Shown piece by piece: positions 5,801 to 47,332 of a stretch of 64,000 nt of DNA. This DNA is from Pseudomonas sp. PDM18. GTDB taxonomy: Bacteria > Pseudomonadota > Gammaproteobacteria > Pseudomonadales > Pseudomonadaceae. The position numbers were made by a program, and so were the translations under genes. Numbering within the stretch: the first letter of the stretch is position 1; each line of letters starts with the position of its first letter. Location of the stretch: positions 1 through 64,000 of the forward strand of contig NZ_JACVBX010000012.1 in assembly GCF_014852585.1 (NCBI RefSeq). The letters are read 5' to 3'. Under the pieces are notes generated by a model. That model did not search any database, had not been told where the DNA came from, and worked only from the letters and a program-made list of their open reading frames with translations.

Positions 5801-5966
5801 CACCGCGCTCCCACTTTGTTCTTGTTGGGGCTCACGCTAGCAACGGGGCTTTCGGGGTGTATATATCCCTCGGGGGATAGATGGCGGGAATGGATCCTTC
5901 GGTATGCACTCGCGGGCTATCCCCGAAAGATCCCGCCATGCGCGCTCCTACAACAAATCAAGAGCC

Positions 5967-6158
5967 CCTCACCCTAACCCTCTCCCGGAGGGAGAGGGGA
6001 CAGTTCGGCGCAGGTTGGAACCATCGCGTCAGCCGGCACGGACGGCCCCCTCTCCCTCTGGGAGAGGGCTGGGGTGAGGGAAAAGCTGTGGCACGGAGCC
6101 CGCTCTTACAGGGGACGCCCGCAGCTGACGGTGGCTGTAGGAGCAAGCTCGCTCCTAC
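5967..6158. repeat. Dispersed palindromic repeats upstream of the transporter operon
   Basis: The 373-base gap between the ATPase gene and the LuxR gene holds two facing copies of a CCCTCTCCC...GGGAGAGGG palindrome (5967-6080). Their outer flanks CCTCACCC and GGGTGAGG are also inverted. A REP-like palindrome follows (6137-6158, GTAGGAGC...GCTCCTAC). The same CCCTCTCCC palindrome recurs at 23418-23439. No gene is visible in this gap. The operon promoter must lie between it and 5800 but was not identified. Confidence 0.7.
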
Positions 6159-23363: not shown

Positions 23364-23417
23364 GTGCAAGCAAACGCGGACAAAGTCCGCTATTCCCTGA
23401 AATATCGCGCCCGGGCC

Positions 23418-23439
23418 CCCTCTCCCTTCAGGGAGAGGG
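23418..23439. repeat. CCCTCTCCC-type palindrome
   Basis: A perfect 9-bp palindrome CCCTCTCCC/GGGAGAGGG with loop TTCA lies between convergent genes, same family as the pair at 5967-6080. Flanking it are degenerate REP halves, GTAGGTGCAAGC and TTGCTCCTAC. Confidence 0.65.
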
Positions 23440-23531
23440 TTAGGGAAAGGGAAACTCCGGGCACGGACTTTCAAGAAAGACAGTTGCTCCTACGTAAAGG
23501 GAAGCTTCGAGGATGACGTGTAGGAGCGGCC

Positions 23532-26678: not shown

Positions 26679-28328
26679 TCACACCAGATGCGGCGTCGCC
26701 CGTGCCACCAGCGCTTCCACATCCACGCCGCGCGGCAGGGTGCCGTAGACGCAGCCGCCGTCGTCCAGGCGGCTGGCGATGAAGGCGTCGGAGACCACCG
26801 AATTACCCGCTTCCAGCAGCAGCTTGGCCTGCAGGGCGATGGCGACGTTTTCGGTGAGCTGGCGGGCGCGGTACTGGATGTCCTGGGTGTCGGCGAAGGA
26901 AGCCTTGAGGTTGCCGATGAACGAAGCCAGGCGTGCATCGCCATGGCCGTCGCCCAGTTCGGCGAACAGCGCGTCGAGCACGCCCGGCTCCTTCGACAGC
27001 GCGCGCAGCACGTCCAGGCACTGCACGTTGCCCGAGCCTTCCCAGGTGGAGTTGACCGGCGCTTCGCGGTACAGGCGCGGAAGGATGGTGTCTTCGACGT
27101 AACCGGCGCCGCCCAGGCATTCGGCGGCTTCGTTGATCATCGCGGGGGCGCGTTTGCAGATCCAGTACTTGCCCACGGCGGTGACCAGGCGGGCGAACTT
27201 GTCCTCCTGTTCGTCGTGCAAGTGGTCCAGGGCGCGGCCCATGCGCAGGGTCAGCGCCAGCGCGGCTTCGCTTTCCAGGGCAAGGTCGGCCAGCACGTTC
27301 TGCATCAGCGGTTGCTCGGCCAGCACGCGGCCACCGACCTGGCGGTAGGCGCAGTGGTGTGCGGCCTGGGTCAGCGCCTGGCGCATCAGGGAGCTGGAAC
27401 CGATCATGCAGTCGAAGCGGGTCATGGCGACCATCTCGATGATGGTCGGCACGCCGCGGCCTTCCTCGCCGACCATCCAGGCCAGCGCGCCACGGTACTC
27501 GACCTCGCTGGAGGCGTTGGACCAGTTGCCCAGCTTGTTCTTCAGGCGCTGGATGTAGAACTCGTTGCGGCTGCCGTCCGGACGATGGCGCGGCAGCAGG
27601 AAGCAGGTCAGCCCCTTGTCGGTGTAGGCCAGGGTGAGGAAGGCGTCGCACATCGGCGCCGAGCAGAACCACTTGTGGCCGACCAGTTCGTAAGCCTGGC
27701 CCGGGCCAGGGATGCCCACCGGGTAGGCGCGCGTGGTGTTGGCGCGTACGTCGGTGCCGCCCTGCTTCTCGGTCATGGCCATGCCGATGGTGGCGCCGGT
27801 CTTCTGCTCGATGGGCAGGTTGCGCGGGTCGTATTCGGTGGAGAGGATCTTCGGCAGCCACTTCTCGGCGATGTCCGCTTGCAGGCGGATCGCCGGCACG
27901 CTGGCGAAGGTCATGGTCAGAGGGCAGCCGGTGCCGGCTTCGGCCTGGCTGTGCAGGTAGCTCAGGCCCGCGCGGGCGACGTGGGCGCCGGCACGTGGGT
28001 CGGTCCAGGGCATAGAGGGCAGGCCGGCCTCGATGGCCGCGCGCATCAGCTCGTGGTAGGCCGGGTGGAACTCCACGAGGTCGACGCGGTGGCCGTAGCG
28101 GTCGTGGGACTTGAACACCGGCTTGTTCTCGTTGGCCAGGAAGCCCGCCGCCATCAATGGACCGCCGGCCAGCGCACCGTAAGCGTCGAGCTTCTGCTCG
28201 GCGAAACCGCCGTCGTAGCGACGCACCCACTCCTGCAGCGGCAGGTCGATGCGATAAAGGTTGGCACCGTCCAGCGGCGGCACCTGGTTGGTCACTTCGT
28301 GGGTTTCGGCGTACTGGTGCAGGCTCAT
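26679..28328 (-). CDS. aidB: AidB-like acyl-CoA dehydrogenase
   Basis: A 549-residue flavoprotein matching AidB rather than ordinary acyl-CoA dehydrogenases in length and in its N-terminal sequence (TNQVPPLDGANLYRIDLPLQ). FAD-site motifs MAMTEKQGGTDVRANTT and the C-terminal NSTWEGSGNVQCLD are present. AidB binds DNA and is part of the adaptive response to alkylation in E. coli; other members may act as isovaleryl-type dehydrogenases. Its start overlaps the TetR stop by 4 bases (ATGA), so the regulator and this gene form one coupled operon. Confidence 0.85.
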   Translation of the reverse strand: MSLHQYAETHEVTNQVPPLDGANLYRIDLPLQEWVRRYDGGFAEQKLDAYGALAGGPLMAAGFLANENKPVFKSHDRYGHRVDLVEFHPAYHELMRAAIEAGLPSMPWTDPRAGAHVARAGLSYLHSQAEAGTGCPLTMTFASVPAIRLQADIAEKWLPKILSTEYDPRNLPIEQKTGATIGMAMTEKQGGTDVRANTTRAYPVGIPGPGQAYELVGHKWFCSAPMCDAFLTLAYTDKGLTCFLLPRHRPDGSRNEFYIQRLKNKLGNWSNASSEVEYRGALAWMVGEEGRGVPTIIEMVAMTRFDCMIGSSSLMRQALTQAAHHCAYRQVGGRVLAEQPLMQNVLADLALESEAALALTLRMGRALDHLHDEQEDKFARLVTAVGKYWICKRAPAMINEAAECLGGAGYVEDTILPRLYREAPVNSTWEGSGNVQCLDVLRALSKEPGVLDALFAELGDGHGDARLASFIGNLKASFADTQDIQYRARQLTENVAIALQAKLLLEAGNSVVSDAFIASRLDDGGCVYGTLPRGVDVEALVARATPHLV

Positions 28329-29008
28329 GACGGGTCCTCCGAGGCGGTTGTGGGCGAGGCAGGCTTTGGCAGAACAGATGGGCGCGCCCCGACGGCGCGC
28401 AGGCAGAAGGTCACGAGGGCGTCACTGACCTCCCCCAGGGAAACCCTGGATTGCCCGGCATCGCGCGCAGCGCGGGCCGGTGGTGAAAGTGGACCGATCA
28501 GGGCTTCGGCAATGGCGCCGACCAGGCAGGCGGCGGTCAGCTGCACCGGCTGCGGCTGGAATTCACCGGTGGCTATGCCCTGCTCCAGCAGGGTGACGAA
28601 CAGCGCGGCGTAGGCTTCGCGGTAGATCAGGCGCTGCTCGTCCACCTCCGGATCGACCGGCTCGGCGATCAGGGCGAAGGCCAGCTGGCGACTGCCCCAG
28701 GCGCGGGCGGCGAACTGATGCAGGCCGCGGTTCAGGCGTTCCGAGGCGCTGCCGGGAGCTTTCAGCAGCTCGCCCAGGGTATCGACCTCACGCTGGCTGG
28801 CACGGGCGAAGACCTCGGCAGCCAGCTCGCCCTTGCCGCTGAAGTGCCGGTAGAGACTGCCAGTGGCGATGCCGGCGTCGTCGGCCAGGCCCTGCATGGT
28901 CAGTGCCGCGAACCCGCCATCAGCGACCCGCGCCAGCGCCAACACGAGAATGCGCTCGCGCTGTTCGCCATCCTTTTGCAGGCGGGCCTGGGTTTGTCGG
29001 TAAGCCAT
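28325..29008 (-). CDS. TetR-family transcriptional regulator
   Basis: A 227-residue repressor-type protein with an N-terminal TetR helix-turn-helix (ERILVLALARVADGGFAALT, then MQGLADDAGIATGSLYRHFS) and a variable ligand-binding C-terminal domain. It is the first gene of a two-gene operon with the aidB-like gene. A large inverted repeat starts 2 bases upstream of its ATG and almost certainly is its autoregulatory operator. The inducer is unknown. Confidence 0.9.
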   Translation of the reverse strand: MAYRQTQARLQKDGEQRERILVLALARVADGGFAALTMQGLADDAGIATGSLYRHFSGKGELAAEVFARASQREVDTLGELLKAPGSASERLNRGLHQFAARAWGSRQLAFALIAEPVDPEVDEQRLIYREAYAALFVTLLEQGIATGEFQPQPVQLTAACLVGAIAEALIGPLSPPARAARDAGQSRVSLGEVSDALVTFCLRAVGARPSVLPKPASPTTASEDPS

Positions 29009-29009
29009 G

Positions 29010-29058
29010 GTCTGAATCCTGATTCACTGCATGAAAAGCAGTGAATCATGATTCAGAC
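29010..29058. promoter_or_regulatory. Operator-like double palindrome upstream of the TetR gene
   Basis: Two 21-base arms (29010-29030 and 29038-29058) are inverted copies with a single mismatch. Each arm itself contains the palindrome TGAATCATGATTCA (one base changed in the left copy). This gives two operator sites for a dimeric TetR protein, adjacent to its start codon. The transposon left end begins 43 bases further right. Confidence 0.8.
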
Positions 29059-29100
29059 TTTATCGAAAAGGGACATTCCCGCCACGAGCGGGGTGGTTTC

Positions 29101-29160
29101 TGACAATAGATTTTGACAATCGATAAAAAATATTGACAAGAAACAATTAATTTAGACAAA
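29101..29160 (+). repeat. Tn7-like left-end repeats (putative TnsB sites)
   Basis: Four direct copies of (T/A)GACAA start at 29101, 29114, 29134 and 29154, with spacings of 13, 20 and 20 bases in very AT-rich DNA just upstream of tnsA. Multiple short spaced transposase-binding repeats are the hallmark of Tn7-family ends. The outermost base of the element is taken as 29101 (TGACAAT), but this is uncertain since no matching right end was found to confirm it. Confidence 0.6.
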
Positions 29161-29161
29161 T

Positions 29162-29188
29162 GTAAGTCATTGATTTTTATGGACTTAC
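29162..29188. promoter_or_regulatory. Inverted repeat in the tnsA leader
   Basis: GTAAGTC and GACTTAC are inverted about a 13-base AT-rich spacer between the left-end repeats and tnsA. It could be an operator for control of transposase expression. The 29189-29290 bases show nothing else recognisable until the AGGAGGG ribosome site of tnsA. Confidence 0.4.
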
Positions 29189-29302
29189 GATGAAGAACCG
29201 ACTATCTGGAATCGCCAAAACTCGGCGAATCCGCCGTAATCTGCACTCAGGGCAACCTGGCAAAAACGCCATCCGAGACATGCTCCTCCATCAGGAGGGA
29301 CG

Positions 29303-30154
29303 ATGAAGGCCAAACGACTCGAGAGTTCATCCGATATCGAGCGCCATATACGAGCCGGAGCAGGCCAAGGTGTTCGCGAATCGTATCGTCCGTGGTTGAC
29401 CGTCAAGGATGTGCCGTCTCTAGGGCGCTCACGCATTGTGAAAGGCCTCACGTTGAACCGTAGGCATCACCTCCTCTCTGACCTTGAGTATCACTACTTT
29501 TTGTTATGTGACTACTCAAGCGAAGTAGTTGATATAAGAGAGCAGTTCCCTCTACTCCCCATAGAGAAAACACGCGAACTTGCAGAGATAAGCAATATTA
29601 AGCATCCGCAACAGCCTCGCTCAAAGAACCCCCTTATCATGACCACAGACTTCCTCTTAACCATTGAAAACTCCGAGGGAAAAGTATTTAACGCCGCGAA
29701 ATCAATAAAATATGAAGAGCACCTAAACGACTCTAGAACTTGCGAAAAACTAGAGTTGGAACGTTTATATTGGGAGGATCAAGGAATTCCCTGGGAAATA
29801 ATCACTGAGAAGTCCCTCCCCATGAAATCAATATTGAATATTGACTACATTTACGGGAAAGCGAAAGTCTCGCTAAGCGAAAACATTAAAAGCCCAGGAG
29901 TTATTTCAAGATTCCTTTCAATGCTTGAACTGCATAACGACCAAGAGAAAACCCTTTCATCTATCATTAAAGATGCAAGCCGCAACCTTCCGCTGACAGC
30001 GGAAGATGCTAAACACCTGTTTTTCCACTGTGTTTGGTCGCGCCACATATGCATAGATATCCACTCCTCCACAGTAGAACTAAGGAAATCAGTTCCATTC
30101 ACTATTAACCACTCAACCTCCCAAGAAAATGAACGGGATTTAAAAGCATGCTAA
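29303..30154 (+). CDS. tnsA: Transposon Tn7-like transposase subunit TnsA (endonuclease)
   Basis: A 283-residue restriction-endonuclease-like protein that cuts the 5' ends of the element so that TnsA plus TnsB excise it fully. The catalytic set is visible: Glu62 in LLSDLEYHYF, Asp116 in IMTTDFLL and Lys133 in NAAKSIKY, matching Glu63/Asp114/Lys132 of Tn7. A C-terminal helical domain of about 110 residues follows. AGGAGGG lies 6 bases before the ATG. It overlaps tnsB by 7 bases. An intact TnsA implies cut-and-paste rather than replicative transposition. Confidence 0.9.
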   Translation: MKAKRLESSSDIERHIRAGAGQGVRESYRPWLTVKDVPSLGRSRIVKGLTLNRRHHLLSDLEYHYFLLCDYSSEVVDIREQFPLLPIEKTRELAEISNIKHPQQPRSKNPLIMTTDFLLTIENSEGKVFNAAKSIKYEEHLNDSRTCEKLELERLYWEDQGIPWEIITEKSLPMKSILNIDYIYGKAKVSLSENIKSPGVISRFLSMLELHNDQEKTLSSIIKDASRNLPLTAEDAKHLFFHCVWSRHICIDIHSSTVELRKSVPFTINHSTSQENERDLKAC

Positions 30155-32337
30155 TAAAAATCAATGAAATACTTACCCCAATCGAGGCTGAGTGCGAGAT
30201 CGCCTGCGCATGTAGAGTTATTTGGATAAATGCAAAATCAGATGCGATATGCTTATTTAAGCTATCTCACCCGGACCGAATGCCAGAGATTTACTCGCTT
30301 GCCTTGATAAAAGAACTCTTAGCCAGCCATAAGATAAGTAGAACCACAGAGAGCGTATCGCCTTTTATTTTACGACACGAAGATGACATTCCACGAAAAG
30401 AACTAGAAAAGCGCGACGATCGCTGGAAGTATATTGAGAAACTAGTAAACAGCACTGCTATCGACGAGGCATTTCTAACGGGCAGCCTAGGATCCAAAAT
30501 TTCAGAGCAAGCAAAGACGCTAGCAGTTGACAGCAAGAAGATATATCGCCTTATCTATAGATATTGGAGATTCGGCCAGACAAAAAACTCCCTGCTAGAC
30601 AACAGAGAGAAATCTGGTGGCAAAGGAAAGCAGCGAATTGCCAAAACGGGCACTTTCCTTGGGCGCCCGCCTAAGAAAGAATCAGCCTTCGGTTTAAAAG
30701 CTCAGTACGCGCTCACTGAATCTGACATACACAAAATACGTTGCGCCTATACACTTTACATGCGTAAGAAATCGCACTCACATACTACCGCCTACCAGGA
30801 CATGATAGAGAAGTACTACTATCAGATCGACCCTACAGATATTAGCAGAAGAATTAGGCCCGAACTGGGAACATATCCATCTATTAACCAGTTCATTTAC
30901 CAAGCAAAAAAAGTATTCGACCCAGTTATGACGCTTAGAAGCAGAATTGGGGATACAAAATACGAGAAAGACCACAAGGTTGTTACCGGAACTGTACAAG
31001 ACAACCTCTGGGGCCCAGGGCATCGTTACGAAATCGATGCGACCATTGCTGACATTTATCTTGTGAGTTCGATAGACCGTAATCGTGTGATTGGTCGACC
31101 AGTAGTTTATAGTGTTATTGACTCGTTCAGCGGAATGTTTGCGGGCATACACGTAGGATTAGAAGGCCCCAGTTGGTACGAAGCACGACAGGCACTATTC
31201 AACTCCTTTACAGACAAGGTCGAATTCTGTAAGGAAATTGGAATTGACATAACTCCCGATGAATGGCCGTCGCACCATTTACCCCGAGAAATCACGGCTG
31301 ATCGCGGCGAAATACTTAGTTTACCGGCTGAAGGAATGATTGATGGGCTAGATGTTAATCTTACCTATTGCCCACCTAGACGACCTGACTTGAAACCGAT
31401 GGTGGAAAGTCATTTTCGAACATTGAAGCGTGGAAGCCGAACTGAGTTCATGCCTGGGGCAGTAGTAAAAGTAGAAACGCAGCGAGGAGAACGCGACCCT
31501 CGGCTAGATGCGACGCTCAACATTAAAGAATTTACAAAAATAATAGTCGAATGTGTTCTCAACCACATTAAAACCACTAGACGCCCAGAGTATCTATCTC
31601 TCGACATGATCACTGACGGGATTAGGCCAACTCCATTATCCATATGGAACTGGGCCATTGAAAATGACCTGCATGAGTCCCACCAACGTGCTGCCGATAT
31701 TATATATCTAAATCTACTACCTAGAAAAAGAGCAATGATCACACGCTCCGGGATAAGATTTAATGGACTACGTTACTTTATCGACAATGACCCAAGCAAC
31801 GCCTGGATAGAATCCATGACGCTCAGAGCGTCTGTTCGCACAGATATCTATCATGACTGTATAACCTCGAATCACATCTGGATTCAAATAAAAGGAAAAG
31901 GGCTGCAGAGATGCTCGCTTCGTGCAAGCGACCTGCATTTTTCTGAGTTTAGAGCAGAAGAAGTTGAAGATATTAAAACGTACTACAAGACATCTACACC
32001 AGAGGAGAGTCACGATGCACTCATGTGCACGATTGAGAAAAATATGAGGATCAATGAGGTTCTAAAAAAAGCGACCGCAGAAAAAGCGCAACACCCTAAA
32101 CTCAAGACCAAAAAAGCAAAAACGGAAAACATTAAGATCAACAGAAACATCGAGAAGGCTATCTCTCGACAGCAGAACTTGGAAAGCAACGACCTCTACG
32201 AGAACGTTATACAACTCGAAAAGTACAAAAGCCCCCATAAATCCAAACTCCCCCCTCAAGCATCCCCCCTCGAAATATCAGAAGTACAAGACTTCTTAAG
32301 GATCTTGGCAGAAGTTGAGGGCACCCCCAATGAGTGA
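30148..32337 (+). CDS. tnsB: Transposon Tn7-like transposase subunit TnsB (DDE recombinase)
   Basis: A 729-residue DDE integrase-fold transposase that binds the end repeats and joins 3' ends to target DNA. The triad is Asp297 (RYEIDATI), Asp385 (ITADRGE) and Glu420 (MVESHFRTL), with the classic 34-residue gap between the last two. An N-terminal DNA-binding region precedes it, and a Lys-rich C-terminal tail (about 640-700) probably contacts TnsC. It overlaps tnsA by 7 bases and tnsC by 8, so the genes are translationally coupled. The sequence is AT-rich. Confidence 0.93.
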   Translation: MLIKINEILTPIEAECEIACACRVIWINAKSDAICLFKLSHPDRMPEIYSLALIKELLASHKISRTTESVSPFILRHEDDIPRKELEKRDDRWKYIEKLVNSTAIDEAFLTGSLGSKISEQAKTLAVDSKKIYRLIYRYWRFGQTKNSLLDNREKSGGKGKQRIAKTGTFLGRPPKKESAFGLKAQYALTESDIHKIRCAYTLYMRKKSHSHTTAYQDMIEKYYYQIDPTDISRRIRPELGTYPSINQFIYQAKKVFDPVMTLRSRIGDTKYEKDHKVVTGTVQDNLWGPGHRYEIDATIADIYLVSSIDRNRVIGRPVVYSVIDSFSGMFAGIHVGLEGPSWYEARQALFNSFTDKVEFCKEIGIDITPDEWPSHHLPREITADRGEILSLPAEGMIDGLDVNLTYCPPRRPDLKPMVESHFRTLKRGSRTEFMPGAVVKVETQRGERDPRLDATLNIKEFTKIIVECVLNHIKTTRRPEYLSLDMITDGIRPTPLSIWNWAIENDLHESHQRAADIIYLNLLPRKRAMITRSGIRFNGLRYFIDNDPSNAWIESMTLRASVRTDIYHDCITSNHIWIQIKGKGLQRCSLRASDLHFSEFRAEEVEDIKTYYKTSTPEESHDALMCTIEKNMRINEVLKKATAEKAQHPKLKTKKAKTENIKINRNIEKAISRQQNLESNDLYENVIQLEKYKSPHKSKLPPQASPLEISEVQDFLRILAEVEGTPNE

Positions 32338-33724
32338 TGCAGTCTACTCTCTTTCTGAAATTCCCGAGCATAGCGATAACCCCCTTATCGAAGCTCTTCC
32401 TCCGATAAAAAAACCTATAGAGACAGTCAGGTCCATAATAAACACCCCTGAACTCCCAAACGAAGACACAGCACTCGCCAGCTCTGTCCGCATTCACTTA
32501 TTAAACAGGATCAACCAAGTTATCCAGCCATTCCAGAGCCACATTCAGATAGAGCAATCAATCTCCATACTAATCAGAAACGGGTATTTAGGCAGAAATC
32601 CGTTCAACGCAACCACTGTAAGGCACCTACATACCATTAACCAAAGAATACACTCAGGCTTTAATTCAACAGCTAGTAGCGGATGTGTATTTGGCCTGAG
32701 CGGAATGGGGAAAACCACGGCCGTTACCTCGATTTTAAAAACCTATCCTCAAATTATAACTCACAACAAATACAAGGACCGAGCGTTTATCCAGAAGCAA
32801 GTAGTCTGGCTAAAAATTGACAGCCCAGCCGACGGCTCAATAAAATCTTTATGCTGCAGTTTCATCAGAGCATTAGGCGCAGCTCTTTGTGATGAAAAAA
32901 TTGTAGACCAAGCTCGCACTCTAAGAAGCACCTCGCAACTCATACAAACAATGTCTCAGCTTGCAAGCACATATTATCTCGGACTATTAGTAGTTGATGA
33001 AATTCAGACATTAAACCGGACGCGAGCAGGTAGAGAATCTCTTCTTGACCATTTATTAATACTTATCAACGAGATAGGAATTCCAATACTTTTTGTTGGC
33101 ACATTTTCAGCCATTCGATTATTCGATGGAAATTTGCGCACGACCCGTCGCATGTGTGGCATGGGAATGATAGCTATGGATAGATTTGAAAGTACTGATC
33201 CAGAATGGAATGGTCTTATTGAGAAACTATGGAAATACCAATGGGTACATCACCCCATTGAACTGACCGACTCAATCAAGAAGACAATTTACGACCTCAC
33301 TCAGGGGATAACTGACCTCTTAGTCAAGCTACTAATTTCAGCCCAATATTCTGTCATAGGATCAAGAAACGAAGAGATAAATGAATCCGTCTTGATGAAG
33401 GTATTTGAAAATCGATTATCCCCCCTGAAACCCGCAATGGATGCTCTTCGTTCAGGAGGCTACAAGTCGAAAGACTTGTATGAAGATCTACTACCATCCA
33501 AAGCGCTGATTAGCTCCATGATGAACACGCCATTCGCAGTCTGCAGAGATATTTCAGAACTAATATCCAACATTGAAGGCAACTATCCACCCACCCCGAC
33601 AAAAACCATTAATCGCGCGCCCACAACAAAAATCAAAGCGCCCAAAAAACCGCCGAAAGACATTATCGACATGACAAAGTGGGTTGCAAAGAACGCTCTA
33701 GAATTCTCGGGAAGCATAGAGTAG
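32330..33724 (+). CDS. tnsC: Transposition regulator TnsC (AAA+ ATPase)
   Basis: A 464-residue AAA+ protein that couples target selection to the transposase. Walker A is GLSGMGKTT (122-130) and Walker B LLVVDEIQ with Asp223/Glu224. The start at 32330 (ATGAGTGATG) overlaps the tnsB stop; a TTG 15 bases upstream is a weaker option. A basic C-terminal segment (KIKAPKKPPK) may bind DNA. The next gene starts 5 bases downstream. Confidence 0.9.
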   Translation: MSDAVYSLSEIPEHSDNPLIEALPPIKKPIETVRSIINTPELPNEDTALASSVRIHLLNRINQVIQPFQSHIQIEQSISILIRNGYLGRNPFNATTVRHLHTINQRIHSGFNSTASSGCVFGLSGMGKTTAVTSILKTYPQIITHNKYKDRAFIQKQVVWLKIDSPADGSIKSLCCSFIRALGAALCDEKIVDQARTLRSTSQLIQTMSQLASTYYLGLLVVDEIQTLNRTRAGRESLLDHLLILINEIGIPILFVGTFSAIRLFDGNLRTTRRMCGMGMIAMDRFESTDPEWNGLIEKLWKYQWVHHPIELTDSIKKTIYDLTQGITDLLVKLLISAQYSVIGSRNEEINESVLMKVFENRLSPLKPAMDALRSGGYKSKDLYEDLLPSKALISSMMNTPFAVCRDISELISNIEGNYPPTPTKTINRAPTTKIKAPKKPPKDIIDMTKWVAKNALEFSGSIE

Positions 33725-33729
33725 CGCCC

Positions 33730-34611
33730 ATGCCTGGGGCTAACCATTTCTTTCCCTCACCATTACCTGGCGAGACACTTTTTAGTATCTGCTCAAGATA
33801 CCATGTTCTTTCTGGGAATCCTTCACCATTGAAAACCAGAGAAGACTTGAAATGCCCTAGAAATTTCTTCGGCTTCTTAGATTTACCTACCAAAATTTCA
33901 CAACTAATATCCGAAACCGTTCTTAAAAATAGAATATCAGCAGACGAACTTACAATAAAAAATACAAATTACCCGTACTTCCAACCATTCCTAACCGAAC
34001 AACAGAACGCCGAATTAATCACTCTGATCTCAACAGGGAAACACCCCAAGCGCAGAATCACCCTGAGCATTAAAGCTCAAATTCGGTGCAAATACTGTGT
34101 CCACTGTGTAAATGATGACTTGTCAAGACATGGAGTATCCTATTGGCATAGGGAGCATCAGTTACCAGGGGTTTTTGTTTGCCCAACACATAACACCCCC
34201 CTTCGATTCGTACCTAATCGCTATCAAAATAAAGTAATATCAGGACTACTCCTTCCGGAGGCGACCGCCCTCAACCCTATATCCCAAGAAGCTGAGACTA
34301 AAGAATCTCTACAACTACTTACATGTATAGCCAAACGGACTTTAGACTACCTAAACCACCCCAGCATGGCTCTAATGGAGATCAATGAAGGGATTCCTCC
34401 GCTACGGAAAAATTTTGAGATACTAACAAAAACTCTTGCTAGCCTCCCCCCCCTCGGCGAATACCTTTACTTCAGACCAAGAGTCCCTGACTCCTTCCCA
34501 GCAAAGCTTCAGAAAGCCTTACACCGCCCCTTTATGCTTCATCGACCATTCGAATTCATCCTACTTAGATCAATCGCCGATGTCGTATCGCATAATCATT
34601 TGATCAATTAA
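33730..34611 (+). CDS. tniQ: TniQ/TnsD-family target-selection protein (short form)
   Basis: A 293-residue TniQ protein. The N-terminus FFPSPLPGETLFSICSRYHV is diagnostic of the family, and a zinc-finger set is visible: Cys120, Cys123, Cys126, His140, His143, Cys151 and His154. It is much shorter than Tn7 TnsD (about 500 residues) and lacks the C-terminal DNA-recognition part. It may therefore work as a minimal adaptor, like the TniQ of Tn5053-type or CRISPR-associated elements. No cas gene or CRISPR repeat accompanies it. It follows tnsC by 5 bases. Confidence 0.88.
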   Translation: MPGANHFFPSPLPGETLFSICSRYHVLSGNPSPLKTREDLKCPRNFFGFLDLPTKISQLISETVLKNRISADELTIKNTNYPYFQPFLTEQQNAELITLISTGKHPKRRITLSIKAQIRCKYCVHCVNDDLSRHGVSYWHREHQLPGVFVCPTHNTPLRFVPNRYQNKVISGLLLPEATALNPISQEAETKESLQLLTCIAKRTLDYLNHPSMALMEINEGIPPLRKNFEILTKTLASLPPLGEYLYFRPRVPDSFPAKLQKALHRPFMLHRPFEFILLRSIADVVSHNHLIN

Positions 34612-34754: not shown

Positions 34755-35473
34755 GTGAGCTTCTGTCCTTGTCGGGGGGATGTTCGATTGGCATATACCC
34801 CCGAGGTTGACCGCCCTAATCCGGTGCGCCCCTTCGCCCCTTGTCAACTTTCAAAGCCAAATTCTCACGGCTTTGGATACTGGCATAGCTTCGCGGCTGC
34901 TTGGCGGCGTGCAGTACTCGGAGCTTTTCTTCGCTGGGCTTAGGCGACTGCTGCAACTACTGATCACGCGAAGCAATTTTTCGCGCATCCGGACGTGGTT
35001 AGTAAAGGATTGGGGGGCAGTTGGAGATTGAGCCAAAGCTGAGCTCACCGAGGCGGTTTGAGAATCTGCGGGTTGGCGACAGAGCCAGGTTGCTGGAGAT
35101 GATCCATTCCCTTTTTATCGACTGGCCTGCGTCCTTTCTGTCGATAGCGAAAGCGCAGCATGTTTCGAGTTCATACATCCTGGATTATCACCGGTCTTTA
35201 CCCTTTTGGCTGGACAACCCGGTCAGGATGGAGTTGGGCGATAAGGATTACGCGCCGTCGGCTGCTGAGCGTAAAGCGGCGAAGGAATACCTTAAAAAAA
35301 ATGGCCGCTGCGGCAGCCAGGATGAGGTGAACGGGATCCTGGGGGTGTCGTCGACTGGATACAGTGCCTCGAAACGCGAGCGTTGGAATCCGCGGGGACC
35401 AGACACTTACTCCCGAGTTCGTTCTCCTTGCGCGCGAAGGCGGATTGTTCAAGTGCTAAGCCTTGGCGGTTGA
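34755..35473 (+). pseudogene. Second TniQ/TnsD-family gene, multiply frameshifted
   Basis: Three successive reading frames give TniQ-like sequence in the correct order. First is a Cys-containing finger segment (FCPCRGDVRLAYTPEVDRPN, ending PFAPC). Next is a middle part (ILTALDTGIASRLLGG, then FFAGLRRLLQLL, then RIRTWLVKDWG, up to about 35029). Last is a C-terminal part (RRFENLRVGDRARLLEMIHS and LFIDWPASFLSIA, from about 35045). At least two frameshifts interrupt it, and the N-terminal half is missing or unrecognisable. It is richer in GC than the tnsABC genes, so it may have a different origin. Confidence 0.65.
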
Positions 35474-36436: not shown

Positions 36437-36772
36437 ATGACTACCCCCTCTGAACGCTCGCGCGCAGTTCTGCAGGCCAGAGAGCTCTTGGCAGCATTGG
36501 CTAATAATCCTGAGCTTGATGAGTCCGTGCGGGAGAGCGCGCAAGGCGTTTTACGCCACTTCCCCACGCCTTCGGAAATGCACCAGGCAGGATTGATCGA
36601 AGAGAGCTCACGTTTCGGAGCAATTTTTGAGTCGACAGATCGTGCCAGTCGCTATGGCTGGCCGGCGACTGAGTGGGGGTTCGCGAAGCGCTGCGTCTGT
36701 CGATTAACTCGTCTCCTGATCCGTTTCCTGGCAAGCGGACCAGTAAAGCGCGTTGAAGCGCTGGATCGTTAG
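36437..36772 (+). CDS. BPSL0761-like small protein, 3' part possibly altered
   Basis: A 111-residue ORF. The first 65 or so residues (MTTPSERSRAVLQARELLAA...VRESAQGVLRHFPTPSEMHQ) match the short BPSL0761-type family, whose role is unknown. GGCAGGAGG lies 5 bases before the ATG. The last 40-45 residues (after GAIFE) are Arg/Cys-rich and do not look like the family, so the natural end was probably lost by a rearrangement that also joined this DNA to the IclR remnant. Confidence 0.45.
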   Translation: MTTPSERSRAVLQARELLAALANNPELDESVRESAQGVLRHFPTPSEMHQAGLIEESSRFGAIFESTDRASRYGWPATEWGFAKRCVCRLTRLLIRFLASGPVKRVEALDR

Positions 36773-36775
36773 GCG

Positions 36776-37225
36776 TTGGGAGAGACAGTGGCGCTGTCGT
36801 GTCTGCGCGGGCAGCAAAGCAACGTGATCATTCGCGTCATCAGCGAGAATGAACTGCATGTTGTCATTCCGCTGGGGCGTTCATTACCGATGCACGCCAC
36901 GGCGGACGGCAAGGTACTGCTTTCCACTTTGAGTGACGAAGAAATCGGTCAGTGGCTTACTCCCGAACCGGAGAAGCTAACCGGTAATACACTCGGCCTG
37001 ACTGCGCTGCTCAAGCAGATGCAAGCCATTCGCCGAGATGGTGTTGCCATGGATATTGAAGAGCACTCACCTGGCGTGAGCGCGATCAGCATTCTGCTCC
37101 CAACCTTCATGGGACCACACGCGGTGACGGTAATAGCCCCCACCTCGCGCTTTGAGGTCAGAAAGGAGGAGTTCCGCCAAGCCCTGGAGAAGTTCAGGGA
37201 GGACTTCAAGCAGACCCAGAAATGA
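36776..37225 (+). pseudogene. IclR-family regulator, C-terminal effector domain only
   Basis: About 148 codons encode the second half of an IclR-type regulator: GETVALSCLRG, then LGRSLPMHATADGKVLLSTL, then GVSAISILLP and VTVIAP near the end. The N-terminal winged helix and the start of the effector domain are missing; no ATG or ribosome site precedes the conserved part. The break sits immediately before the GETVALS strand. It is therefore a 5'-truncated remnant. Confidence 0.7.
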
Positions 37226-39705: not shown

Positions 39706-39797
39706 TGCCCCCACTACAGCGCTATCAGGCACCCACGATGTGATTGCCGCCCCCCCGAACCGATGCTCGCTCCATAGCCTTCTCATGGAGACGCATC

Positions 39798-42700
39798 ATG
39801 AAAACCGTCGACCGCACCGCTGCTTCGCCCACTTCGAACTGTACCCTCGCGCACCTGCGCCGTTCTCACCTGGCGCAAGCGATCAGTCTTGTTCTAGCCA
39901 GCGTGTTCAGCCTGCGGGTCATCGAGGCCGAAGCCGAGGACAACGTCACCGAAACCGATACCGACGACCTTAATCTGCCGTCCGAGGCCGGCGCCGTATT
40001 CGAATCCACCGCGCCCTCCTACCTCGACCTCGCGCTGCAAGCGGCCCATGAGGCACCGGCAATCTTCGCCAATCGAACCCTGCTCGGTGCGCCGGCGCCC
40101 ATCACGGTCACCACCAGCGGCGGAATCGGGGTCAGCACCGGCGTCACCACTGACACCACCATCCGGTTAGGCGGCGCCAGCACCACCGGCGTGAAAACCA
40201 GTGGCGACGTCACCTTCAACCAGGGACGCATCGAGAATATCGCCACCACCGCAGCGACGGCCAAGAGCCAGACCGGCGCCGAGGCAACCGCCGGGAAAAC
40301 CCTCACGATCAGCGACAGCAGCATCGTGCTGGACCCGAAAACCACGGCCAGCGTGGCCATCACCACCAACGACCTGACTGGCGTGCGAGTGAACGCCAAC
40401 GGCGCAGCGCACCTGACCGGCACGCAGGTCGTGGTTGGCGGTGGCGCAAAAGGCAACAACAACCACGGTGTCGTCGTCACCCAGGGACAACTGGACATGC
40501 GAGGCGGCTCGGTGAGCACCCAGTCCTGGGGTGGTATCGGCATATCCCTGGAAGGCGGCGCGCACGCGCGCCTGGATGACGTCGCCGTCGCCACTACTGG
40601 CGTTCGCAGTACCACCACCGGCGGCGCTCACGGTGTTCGAGTGAGCGGCGCCAGCACGCTCACGGCCAACGGCGGCACCATTGCGACCAGCGGCGGTTCC
40701 GCCTATGGGCTGCGTGCGGACCAGGGCGCGACGTCCGCCTTGAACGACATCAGTGTCACCACCGCCGGCGGCAACGGCCACGGCGTGCTGGCGGATGACG
40801 CGCGGGTGACCTTGTCCGGCGGCGCGATCAGCACCACCGGCAAAGGCTCCGTGGGCGTCTGGGCGCGTAACGGTGCAGAAGTCACCCTAAGCGGCAATAC
40901 GCAAATTCATACCAGCGGCGCAGCGGTCTCCGCAGCCACTCCAGTAGACGACGAAAAATCCCTGAGTCTGAGCCACGGCCTGCTGGCCAATGGTGCGGGT
41001 ACGTCCATCGATGCCGACGGCGTGGCGCTCGACATCGCTGCCGGCAGCGCCAGTGCGGCGCGCAGCGAGGACGGTGCACAGATTACCCTGCGCAATGCGG
41101 ACATCGATGTAAGCGGCGGCGCAACCTCCACCGCCACGACTGCCGCCCTGCACGCGCTCTCCGGCAGCCGGATCGACATGGCCGATTCCACCCTGGATGC
41201 CACAGGCACCAATGTCGGCGGCATTCGCGCCGAGGGTAACGGCAGCCAGGTGCGGATGAGCCACAGCCAGGCGACGATCAGCGGCGCGGGCAGCGCTGCT
41301 AATCCGGCAGCCGGCGCGCGGGCGATGTCCGGCGGTAGCGTTGAACTGGACCACGCCACTCTCAATGTGCATGGCCTGACCTATGGGCACGGTGTGTCCC
41401 TCGAAGGTGCAGGCTCCAGCGGCGCGATCAGCCACTCCACGGTCACTGTGGACGGCAACCGCTCCATCGGCCTCAACATTAGCGGCGGGGCCAGCGCAAG
41501 GGTGGATGCCAGCAGCATTTCGGTGGATGCACCGTCCGGCGCCGTAGGACCCTGGTCGCCCGGCGTGCTGGTGGATGGCGCGGGATCGACCCTGCAAATG
41601 TCCGGCAGCGACGTGCACACCACACCCAAGACCAGCTACGGCGTACAGGTGCGCGAAGGCGCCGATGCCACGGTGATCAACGGCAGCATCACCACCGAGG
41701 GCAACTATTCCACCGCACTGGCCGCCGGTAGTTCTTCCAGCACCGCGCCGCGCTCGACCCTCACCGCCAGCAACCTAACCGTCACCACCCATGGCAACGA
41801 CAACGCCATGGGCATCGTCGCCGACCTGGGCGCCACCGTCGTCGTCCATGGAGGCTCGGTCACCACCACCGGCAGCGGCTCGCCGGTGGCCAGCAACCTG
41901 ACCTTTCCCCACGGCCTTGCCGCCCGCAATCCCGGCGCGCTGCTGATTGCCGACGGCACCAGCGTGCTGACCCAGGGTTCGCAAGCCTACGGCGCCGCTG
42001 TTGACGACGGCGGCAGCATGATCCTCGATAACCTTAGCGTGAAGACCGAAGGCCAGTATTCGGTCGGGCTGTACGCCGGCATCGGCTCAGCCAAGCCGGG
42101 CACGGTCGGCCTGAGCGCCAGCCACGTGACGGTGCAGACACTGGGAGATCACGCCAGCGGAGCCATGGTCAGCCGGCAGTACAAGAGCGAGACCGCAACG
42201 CTGGATCTCAAGGACAGCAGCATCTCCACCCAGGGCATGGGTTCCCACGGGCTGCGGGCCGAATCCGGCGGAGCATTGAGTGCGAGCAACAGCGCCGTCA
42301 GCACGCAAGGCAAACAGGCCACTGGCGTGTTCGCCAACAACACCGCCAGCGCTCGCCTGGACGGAGTGAGCGTGAATACCCAAGGCGATTTCGGCCACGG
42401 CGTGGTGGCCCGCCAGGGTGGCAGCGTCGACGCCGAGTCTGTCGTGGTCGCCGCCCACGGCGGGCAATCGGCGGCGCTCTACGTGCAAGGCACCGATGCG
42501 CTCCCCGGGCAGGTACGCATGGACCAGGCCACGCTGGGCAACCGCGACGGTGCCACTATCGCCACGGCCGGCGTCGCGGACATCGCCCTGAGCCACAGCC
42601 TCGCCGGCGGCAGCGGCCAATGGCTGAACGTGGACAGCTCGGTGGCCAGCGATGGCACCAGCGTTCCGGACATGGGCACTGGCCAGTGGCAAGGTATCGG

Positions 42701-44381
42701 CAGCAGCCAGGATGCTGCCGGCCAGGCGCGCCTGGACCTGTCATCCTCCGTGGTCACCGGTACGGCGAAAACCGCCAGCGGCGCCCACTCCGACGTCACC
42801 CTGCGCGACACCAGCCTCTGGCAGCTCACCGGTGACTCCAACCTGAGCAGCCTGCACAACGATTCCAGCCTGATCGACTTCAGTTCCGAGGGTGGCTACA
42901 AGCGGCTCACCGCCAATGACTACCACGGCGCCAACGGCACCATTGCCCTGAATACCTACCTGTTTAAGGACGACTCGCCGTCCGACCAGTTGGTGATCGA
43001 TGGCGGCAAGGCCACCGGCGAGAGCAACCTGCGCATCAAGAATGCGGGCGGCCCCGGCGCGCTGACCGAGGGCAACGGCATCAAGGTGGTAGACGCCGTC
43101 AACGGGGGCACCACGCAAGCGGACGCCTTCCACTTGCTCAACCGGGTCAAGGCCGGCCCGTATGAGTACACGCTGCATCGCTCAAGCCTCGACGACAGCA
43201 ACGGCGAAGCCTGGTACCTGCGCTCGACGACGGACGCCAACCCCGTCGATCCGGTGGACCCGGTGGACCCGGTGGATCCTGTTGATCCCGTCGACCCAGC
43301 CAATCCAGTCGATCCGGCGGACCCTGTGACACCCACTGACCCAGTCACCCCGGTCACACCAGACACCCCTGCGCCAACACCGCAAATCCCCAATTACCGT
43401 GCAGAGACCTCGCTGTACAGCGCCCTCCCCGCCATGGCGTTGAGCTACAGCCGTGCCCTGGTCGACACCCTGCACGAACGCGTCGGCGAGGAGCGGCGCA
43501 ACGCCACTGACCCACTGCCCAGCGAAGATACCGACACCTACGGCCCCTCGCTCGGCTGGGGCCGGCTGATCTACCAGAAAGGCCGCGACAGCCTCCCCAG
43601 CGGCACAGACTACGACTACCGCATCCAGGCCTTCCAGGTCGGCGCCGACCTCTATCGCAACGAAGACACCGACGGCAGCACGGACCAGGCAGGGCTGTCA
43701 CTGCAGGCCGGGCGCATCAAGGGCAACGTCGATCACACCGACGGCCAGGGCGCCGGAGACGATACCCTGCGCTCCTATGGTATCGGCGGCTACTGGACCC
43801 ACTTCGGCCCCAAAGGCTGGTACCTCGATAGCGTACTGCAATTCAACCGCTTCGACATGCAGGCCCGCGCCAATGACGCCGATCCACTGAAGACACGCGG
43901 GCATGGCGTCACGGCCTCGCTGGAAGCCGGCTACCCGCTCAAGCTCAACCGCGACAAGACGCTCCACCTCGAACCCCAGGCCCAGGTGATCGCCAGCCGC
44001 CTGAAACTCGACGACGCCCATGACGATGCCGCCGATGTCCGCTTCGAAGACGTCGACTCCCTCACCGGCCGGTTGGGCGTGAGGATCGACAAGGACTGGT
44101 TCCGCACGGACGACAAGGGGCAGATCCATCGCACCAACGCCTGGGTACGTCCGAGCGTCTGGCATGAGTTCGAGGGCAAGGCCAAGACGGAGTTCTCCTC
44201 GGCCAACGGCTACATCCCCTTCGGCACCGACATGGATGGCACCTGGGGCGAACTGAACCTGGGCGTGGATTACCAGCTTAACGACCGGACGAGCGTCACC
44301 GGCTCACTGGGATACCAGAAATCGCTCGATGGAGAAGGCCGTAGCTACGAAGGCGTACTAGGTATCAAGGTGAAGTTCTGA
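39798..44381 (+). CDS. Type Va autotransporter (beta-helix passenger, beta-barrel translocator)
   Basis: A 1527-residue outer-membrane protein. An N-terminal export signal ([19 protein letters not shown], about 28-48) is preceded by a 27-residue leader. The passenger (about 50-1145) is Gly/Ser/Thr/Ala-rich, with many strand-turn repeats such as [18 protein letters not shown], typical of pertactin-like beta-helices. A Val-Asp-Pro linker (1150-1190) follows, then an autotransporter barrel (about 1250-1527) ending in Phe (GVLGIKVKF). No protease triad or RGD motif was noticed. GGAG precedes the ATG at 39798. A surface adhesin or biofilm role is likely but unproven. Confidence 0.9.
43245..43371 (+). 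repeat. Val-Asp-Pro tandem repeat in the autotransporter linker
   Basis: About a dozen 9-bp units encode VDP and near variants ([12 protein letters not shown]), forming an extended acidic linker between passenger and barrel. Early units are almost identical in DNA, so the number may vary between strains. Confidence 0.85.
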
Positions 44382-46945: not shown

Positions 46946-47332
46946 CTCGGCAGGTTGGGGGTGCGGCCACCCGCCCACCGGGCCGGAGCTGGCCGCTCGC
47001 CGGCGATACTAGTTTCCGGCTGTCCCGCGAGAGCCCCGCTATTGGAGGGGGCAGCCCCTGACGCCCGTGCGCCCCCTCGCCACGGGGGGCGGGGGACAGC
47101 GCGCCGCGCCTTACCCTGCCCGCCACATGGCCGGTCGGCGTGAGGGCGCTCCACGCAAGGCACCTTCCCGTCGGCGGGCCATCCCTCGCCTGCCGCCCTC
47201 CCCCCTAGCATCCCCCCCTCTCATAAAGGGAGGACCGCCGCGGGTGGCATTCCTGATTCACTGCCACACCGGCCGGCCCCGCGCCGCCAACCCGCCATTC
47301 GCGCCTGCCGCACCAAGACCGACGAGGGACAG

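Follow-up and report, generated by a model that had tools for sequence, protein, structure and literature searches.

A Tn7-like transposon with a short TniQ inserted upstream of a tetR-aidB locus in Pseudomonas sp. PDM18

Tn7 of E. coli has asymmetric ends, one with a tight and the other with a spread array of TnsB sites; it leaves a 5-bp target duplication, and its tnsA end points towards the attachment gene glmS. Its TnsD protein, of the TniQ family, contacts TnsC within residues 1–309 (PMC2918618, accessible text). Shorter TniQ proteins are described as well: Tn6022, at comM, combines a TniQ of 369 residues with TnsF, the short TniQ being presented as a hub that links the transposition machinery to a separate selector, and the transposons associated with clustered regularly interspaced short palindromic repeats (CRISPR; types I-F3, I-B, I-D and V-K) have a TniQ of core size, some of them two (accessible text of PMC10293859 and PMC11406308). 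Faure et al. (2023; PMC10293859) also report numerous loci with a TniQ too short for target selection and no identifiable partner. We describe here such a short TniQ in a Tn7-like transposon of Pseudomonas sp. PDM18, inserted at 29,093/29,094 of the first 64,000 nucleotides of contig NZ_JACVBX010000012.1 (contig C3; “the window” is this whole stretch, and C3 coordinates above 64,000 lie outside it).

The element and its ends

The element is Tn7-like, of the TnsA+TnsB type: it has homologues of TnsA, TnsB and TnsC with their catalytic residues kept, a protein of the TniQ family, asymmetric ends and a 5-bp duplication. The genes tnsA-tnsB-tnsC-tniQ are all open frames in a single direction. TnsA (29303–30154, + strand; 283 residues) is a PD-(D/E)XK endonuclease with E62, D116 and K133; TnsB (30148–32337, + strand; 729 residues) is a DDE transposase with D297, D385 and E420; and TnsC (32330–33724, + strand; 464 residues) is an AAA+ regulator with the Walker A motif GLSGMGKT at residue 122 and the Walker B motif LLVVDEIQ at residue 219. 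The first two genes overlap by 7 bases and tnsB and tnsC by 8, with a gap of 5 bases from tnsC to the start of tniQ at 33730. By sequence, the closest solved structures are in each case those of Tn7 proteins: 7pik for TnsB (E 3.7e-77), 1t0f for TnsA (E 2.6e-39) and 7mbw for TnsC (E 4.6e-71). GC content over the tns genes is 0.43–0.45, against about 0.67 for the surrounding window. The initial annotation, made from the sequence of the window, had taken these genes for a complete-looking machine, and the TnsA and TnsB catalytic residues and TnsC Walker motifs that it named are all confirmed; the four genes are real and, as judged from their sequence, look intact.

Both junctions of the element could be read, placing it at C3 29094–100675 (71,582 bp): the part within the window is 29094–64000, and the right end lies beyond it. 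The 5-bp target-site duplication, CGGGG, is found at 29089–29093 on the left and at C3 100676–100680, outside the window, on the right. The tnsA-proximal, Tn7R-like end (29094–29160, + strand) has the terminus TGGTTTC and TnsB-site-like repeats at 17, 37 and 57 bp, at a 20-bp spacing, with a partial copy at 4; counted from the far end the repeats lie at 17, 84 and 138, giving a tight array at the tnsA end and a spread one opposite. The termini read TGGTT...AACCA, the right terminal part being GGACCA; the terminal bases are TGG, where those of Tn7 are TGT. This reading of the ends is the one that yields a 5-bp duplication in all four of the occupied sites described below.

The right end was located through the host DNA. 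In the closest genomes of the same genus, the match to the left flank ends at about 29091–29094, and an OprD porin gene then follows in locus L002; the OprD porin region of PDM18 itself lies at C3 100686, on the same contig and strand, and mapping it revealed the junction. An end within the window was ruled out, none being found there by an inverted-repeat search or by a search with the reversed left terminus. A genome-wide pattern search with the left terminus gave 47 matches, of which the one exact match was the left end itself, against 29 for a control, and was uninformative. The boundary proposed initially, at 29101, is thus off by 7 bp, the element starting at 29094 directly after the duplication; the empty site, expected at about 29100, falls at about 29093 in the comparison with unoccupied genomes, which favours a transposon, and the 5-bp duplication and right end that the initial annotation had named as marks to look for were both found.

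An insertion point upstream of tetR in four species

The insertion is not downstream of glmS; it is in the promoter region of tetR-aidB. A host gene of the tetR family (Pfam TetR_N; 28325–29008, − strand) adjoins the attachment site, and the end of this gene is overlapped by an aidB-like acyl-coenzyme A (acyl-CoA) dehydrogenase gene on the same strand (Pfam AidB_N; 26679–28328, − strand). The same insertion point is occupied, by an element or a remnant of one, in three species of another genus of the same family (genomes G101, G115 and G162), and the right terminus could be located in all four genomes. Each element is flanked by a perfect 5-bp duplication: CGGGG in the window, TGGTG in G101, CAGCG in G115 and CGAAG in G162. 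That the four duplications differ points to separate insertions. The TnsB-site-like repeats of the other three stand at 17 and 37 on the left (in G101 also at 57) and at 17, 85 and 138–140 on the right, and every occupied site has tetR on the side of the tnsA end, the position that glmS takes in Tn7 and in the relatives of the element.

The G101 element lies beside the same aidB and tetR genes, and its TnsA, TnsB and TnsC are 47, 52 and 52% identical to those of the window. In G115 and G162 the left end is at the same place; G115, whose element is 21,908 bp long, retains a 5′ piece of tnsA encoding 89 residues, and in the stretches of these two elements that were examined there was no match to tnsB, tnsC or tniQ, nor, in G162, to tnsA. 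These two elements were possibly moved in trans. They share cargo, namely an AraC/DJ-1 regulator, AAA/NB-ARC regulators and a hydrolase (G115, L066:6398 on and L092; G162, L065:6837 on and L093).

Empty sites were read in 16 genomes, seven of the genus of the window and nine of the other genus. A search for TnsB found it in only 1 of 25 genomes of the former (PDM18 itself) and in 3 of 18 of the latter (G101 and two of a more distant type). The alternative that the tns genes are a fixed part of this chromosomal region was tested in this way; the search found no TnsB in the remaining 24 genomes of the genus of the window, which favours a mobile element. The suggestion of a non-glmS attachment site next to the TetR/aidB-like locus is likewise upheld, by the comparison of empty and occupied sites and by the identical insertion point in the three genomes of the other genus. 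The host genes on the far side differ between the genera, an OprD porin in that of the window (L002) and a 7TMR-DISM sensor kinase in the other (L068), so that the shared part of the sites lies on the tetR side.

On that side, directly upstream of tetR, is a palindrome (29010–29058) whose arms hold the word TGAATCNNGATTCA at 29013–29026 and 29042–29055, and which we propose as the probable attachment determinant. The distance from the insertion to the inner palindrome is 33 bp in the window and 32 bp in the other genus, and the spacing between the two TGAATCNNGATTCA palindromes is 29 in the one and 24 in the other. Counted as in Tn7, with the centre of the duplication as zero, the near arm extends from +33 to +53 and its inner word from +36 to +49, an offset within the range that TnsD of Tn7 reads at glmS, +23 to +58 (PMC2918618, accessible text). 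In an alignment of 20 sequences, comprising the 4 occupied and 16 empty sites, mean conservation is 0.94 for the near arm and 0.92 for the far arm, compared with 0.74 for the stretch from palindrome to insertion and 0.81 for the coding part of tetR. The exact word is confined to this locus in seven of eight whole genomes (G063 has one additional copy elsewhere), and the reversed word, used as a control, is found in none of the eight. The near arm is exact in 4/4 occupied but 6/16 empty sites (one-sided Fisher p 0.043, for a comparison chosen post hoc among related genomes); among the empty sites it is exact in none of the seven from the genus of the window and in six of the nine from the other. 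Inexact copies are the far one in G115 and the near one in G015 and G007.

No Tn7-like site at tetR or aidB was found in the literature, a search of open-licence papers that did not cover the supplements, where surveys list sites; the word “TetR” is absent from the accessible part of the main text of Benler et al. (2021; PMC8649781). The attachment site is apparently undescribed, the element is Tn7-like with a shortened TnsD, and the find is solid at the DNA level.

Relatives, the short TniQ and the reading of the site

Most relatives are found at glmS. A TnsB search of 398 genomes of the family gave 35 matches besides that of the window; in 27 of the 29 loci fetched, tnsA closely follows the 3′ end of glmS (Pfam supports GlmS-type domains in the three full genes tested), the exceptions being G101, at the tetR site, and G094. 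Among the 34 matches at E ≤ 1e-60, the window aside, TnsB identity to the window exceeds 41% only in G101. The glmS-homing relatives (L015–L033, L035–L042) and their plasmid kin (L043–L045) resemble the window element in their TnsB (30–41% identical), in the order tnsABC and, where read at length, in having two TniQ-family genes, with the exception of L048. They differ in that both TniQs are long and that the chromosomal elements are at glmS: of five glmS elements read at length, four have a TniQ of 554–613 residues beside tnsC and a second of 552–568 residues, and in the fifth, L048, no TniQ was matched. The three plasmid relatives have two long TniQs each, and the best TniQ match on plasmids is 29% identical. 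A collection of genome contigs gave three TnsB loci at 31–32% identity, viral contigs no further matching members, and 398 genomes of genus g27 no TnsB at E ≤ 1e-172 in a search run without a positive control. The G094 locus (L070), with a TniQ of 524 residues and a HAD-hydrolase gene upstream, is not at glmS and may be another change of site.

The tniQ gene beside tnsC (33730–34611, + strand; Pfam TniQ) encodes only 293 residues, and its counterpart in G101 encodes 288. The protein resembles residues 1–318 of Tn7 TnsD, both by sequence (E 1.2e-13 to structure 8glu) and by its structure model, whose best match is Tn7 TnsD(1–318) with TnsC and DNA (Foldseek E 6.9e-8, 306 columns, TM 0.65). Its alignment with the long TnsD-type proteins of the relatives stops near the end of the TnsD core, the window protein being 261–320 residues shorter; unlike the relatives' proteins of 554–613 residues, and unlike Tn7 TnsD itself, it is not a full-length TnsD with a C-terminal DNA-binding region. 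The minimal TniQ of the initial annotation is thus borne out by alignment and lengths. Reduced to the core with which TnsD contacts TnsC, the protein would be expected to load TnsC, yet the usual DNA reader is missing from it. A short TniQ is present in both of the tetR-site elements that retain tns genes, those of the window and of G101, the two proteins being 34–35% identical and sisters in a tree (100/98).

Shortening by a frameshift is not supported, no TnsD C-terminus being seen by eye in the three frames after 34611, the profile search described below matching only the short TniQ and one near the right end, and the TniQ of G101 also being short. An open reading frame (ORF) at 35021–35473 was considered as a detached tail and discarded: it matches no family and resembles only small plasmid ORFs. 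This ORF, of 150 residues and higher GC content, is about 39% identical to small ORFs on four Pseudomonas plasmids; in the two of these plasmids that were opened, the ORFs stand behind tnsC-like genes.

The short TniQ is not, as had been supposed, the only targeting protein. A TniQ profile search over C3 29,000–103,900 matched one further protein, a second TniQ of 376 residues (Pfam TniQ; C3 99362–100492, − strand), outside the window and 183 bp from the right end; Tn7 differs in this too. In the tree, the right-end TniQs group with the second TniQ of the relatives, a placement made unsure by long branches, that of the window protein above all.

Decay of TnsD after landing at the site, which would make the element a dead relic, appears very improbable. 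The only tns match in the examined stretches of G115 and G162 is the 5′ piece of tnsA in G115, and the second TniQ of G101 is broken; against this, the window element has its catalytic residues, open frames, both ends and duplication intact, and the short TniQs of two elements have nearly the same length and end despite being only 34–35% identical, a pattern more in keeping with a selected form than with a recent truncation.

RNA-guided targeting has little in its favour in the DNA covered. No CRISPR-like array of exact repeats was found in the 71.6-kb element, and no Cas (CRISPR-associated) effector among the ORFs scanned, which cover only part of the cargo in the comparison with family libraries. 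Site and element have no word of more than 14 nucleotides in common, and 2 of 30 shuffles also reach that length; guide RNA targeting appears unlikely. The shared 14-nucleotide word, TCCTGATTCACTGC at 47251–47264, is common to the tetR palindrome arm (half the palindrome) and to DNA upstream of an acyl-CoA dehydrogenase gene in the cargo, perhaps by chance.

Another gene of the element, neither of the TniQs, might instead recognise the site, in the way that Tn6022 is directed to comM by TnsF. Elements with additional selectors are described as being marked by a small TniQ (accessible text of PMC10293859), and there are several regulator genes in the cargo. We nonetheless regard such a reader as unlikely: no ORF of at least 90 residues starts on the same strand within 400 bp after tniQ, and of four ORFs tested after tniQ two are unmatched and two match the BPSL0761 family and part of IclR regulators. 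The window element also differs from Tn6022 in not being at comM, and no TnsF was noticed, though no TnsF profile search was made.

The most probable explanation, to which we give a probability of roughly 0.6, is that a complete 71.6-kb Tn7-like transposon homes to the tetR-aidB promoter, not to glmS, by means of a palindrome arm read by a TniQ of the element. It builds on what can be read in the DNA, that is, the two ends, the 5-bp duplication, the insertion point common to four species, the constant orientation of the tnsA end towards tetR, and the prevalence of glmS sites in the family. As in Tn7, TnsB and TnsA would excise and join the element, and TnsC would link them to the target. The TniQ of 293 residues, given its resemblance to the TnsC-contacting part of TnsD, would load TnsC; the site would be read through the conserved near arm of the palindrome (+33 to +53, counted from the centre of the insertion) by the short TniQ, by the second TniQ of 376 residues, or by both together.

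Several observations weigh against this explanation. The palindrome may be conserved for the regulation of tetR alone; taken whole, with its loop, its conservation is 0.82, no better than that of tetR coding DNA, and the near arm is present with one mismatch in all seven empty sites of the genus of the window. Only two elements with tns genes at the tetR site, those of the window and G101, are in this dataset, and the duplications of G101 and G162 each pair sequence from two contigs, with one end of the element on either contig. As for the proteins, the model of the short TniQ has a mean predicted local distance difference test score (pLDDT) of 63.6 and is weak beyond residue 208; the second TniQ likewise has no long C-terminus, and its model is too poor to be used (pLDDT 40); and the second TniQ of G101, in the same placement 0.5 kb from the right end, is broken.

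A tentative alternative, which we consider less likely but not negligible, is that the host TetR-family repressor selects the target in trans: sitting on its own palindrome and distorting the DNA, it would provide the place where the short TniQ docks and loads TnsC. The element would then need no DNA-reading domain of its own, and its attachment site would be an occupied operator instead of a conserved gene. Such a selector would suit a TniQ that comprises only the core contacting TnsC in Tn7, an inner palindrome exact in all four occupied sites, and an insertion distance to it that is kept (33 and 32 bp) despite the 5-bp difference in palindrome spacing; moreover, the TetR proteins of the two hosts share 69% identity, compared with 34–35% for the TniQs, and the possible selectors in the model of Faure et al. 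(2023) include a transcription factor acting in trans (accessible text of PMC10293859). On the other hand, the role of the palindrome as the TetR operator is suggested by its position, contact between TniQ and TetR is hypothetical, and the second TniQ could perform the selection. Judging from these sequence comparisons, we would place most weight on a TniQ of the element as the site reader and some on the host TetR.

Cargo and implications

Much of the element is occupied by a lipid-catabolism block of 47.8 kb (C3 44787–92624), with genes for electron transfer flavoprotein, acyl-CoA dehydrogenases, a fused hydratase/dehydrogenase, a thiolase, a CoA ligase, DUF1302 and DUF1329 proteins, an MMPL transporter and a LuxC-type reductase. 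The block is 98.8% identical to about 1946797–1994608 of contig C1 in G037, a genome in which TnsB was not found, and its entry into the transposon may have been an independent event. An ORF pair at its right border resembles, by eye, an insertion sequence, and a 99% copy of this pair is also present in G037.

Before the block, the element has a BPSL0761-family ORF beside a fragment whose match to IclR regulators is limited to their C-terminal part (36437–37225), and, behind a response regulator/PAS gene, an autotransporter of 1545 residues (39744–44381), in which a VDP-type repeat stretch precedes the beta-barrel. Genes of PADLOC defence families, namely AbiTii and a DUF4297-HerA pair, lie near the right end at C3 94917–98868 (L091:10917–14868). 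In the host part of the window, 5962–6082 and 23414–23473 belong to a dispersed repeat, about 100 bp long, that is matched at dozens of places in the host genome.

With 27 of the 29 relatives fetched at glmS, a change of site seems to have accompanied the loss of the TnsD C-terminus in this lineage. The simplest history would begin with an ancestral element at glmS, whose TnsD lost its reading half as the lineage moved to the tetR site. How Tn7-like loci with a short TniQ and no partner find their sites is left open in the accessible text of PMC10293859. The present case offers such a short TniQ in an element whose two ends are mapped and whose recurrent site is resolved to the base, with distinct duplications among the four species and a family that for the most part is still at glmS. 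Two questions thereby become open to direct test: by what route a Tn7 element moves to a new attachment site, and whether a regulator of the host can act as the selector.

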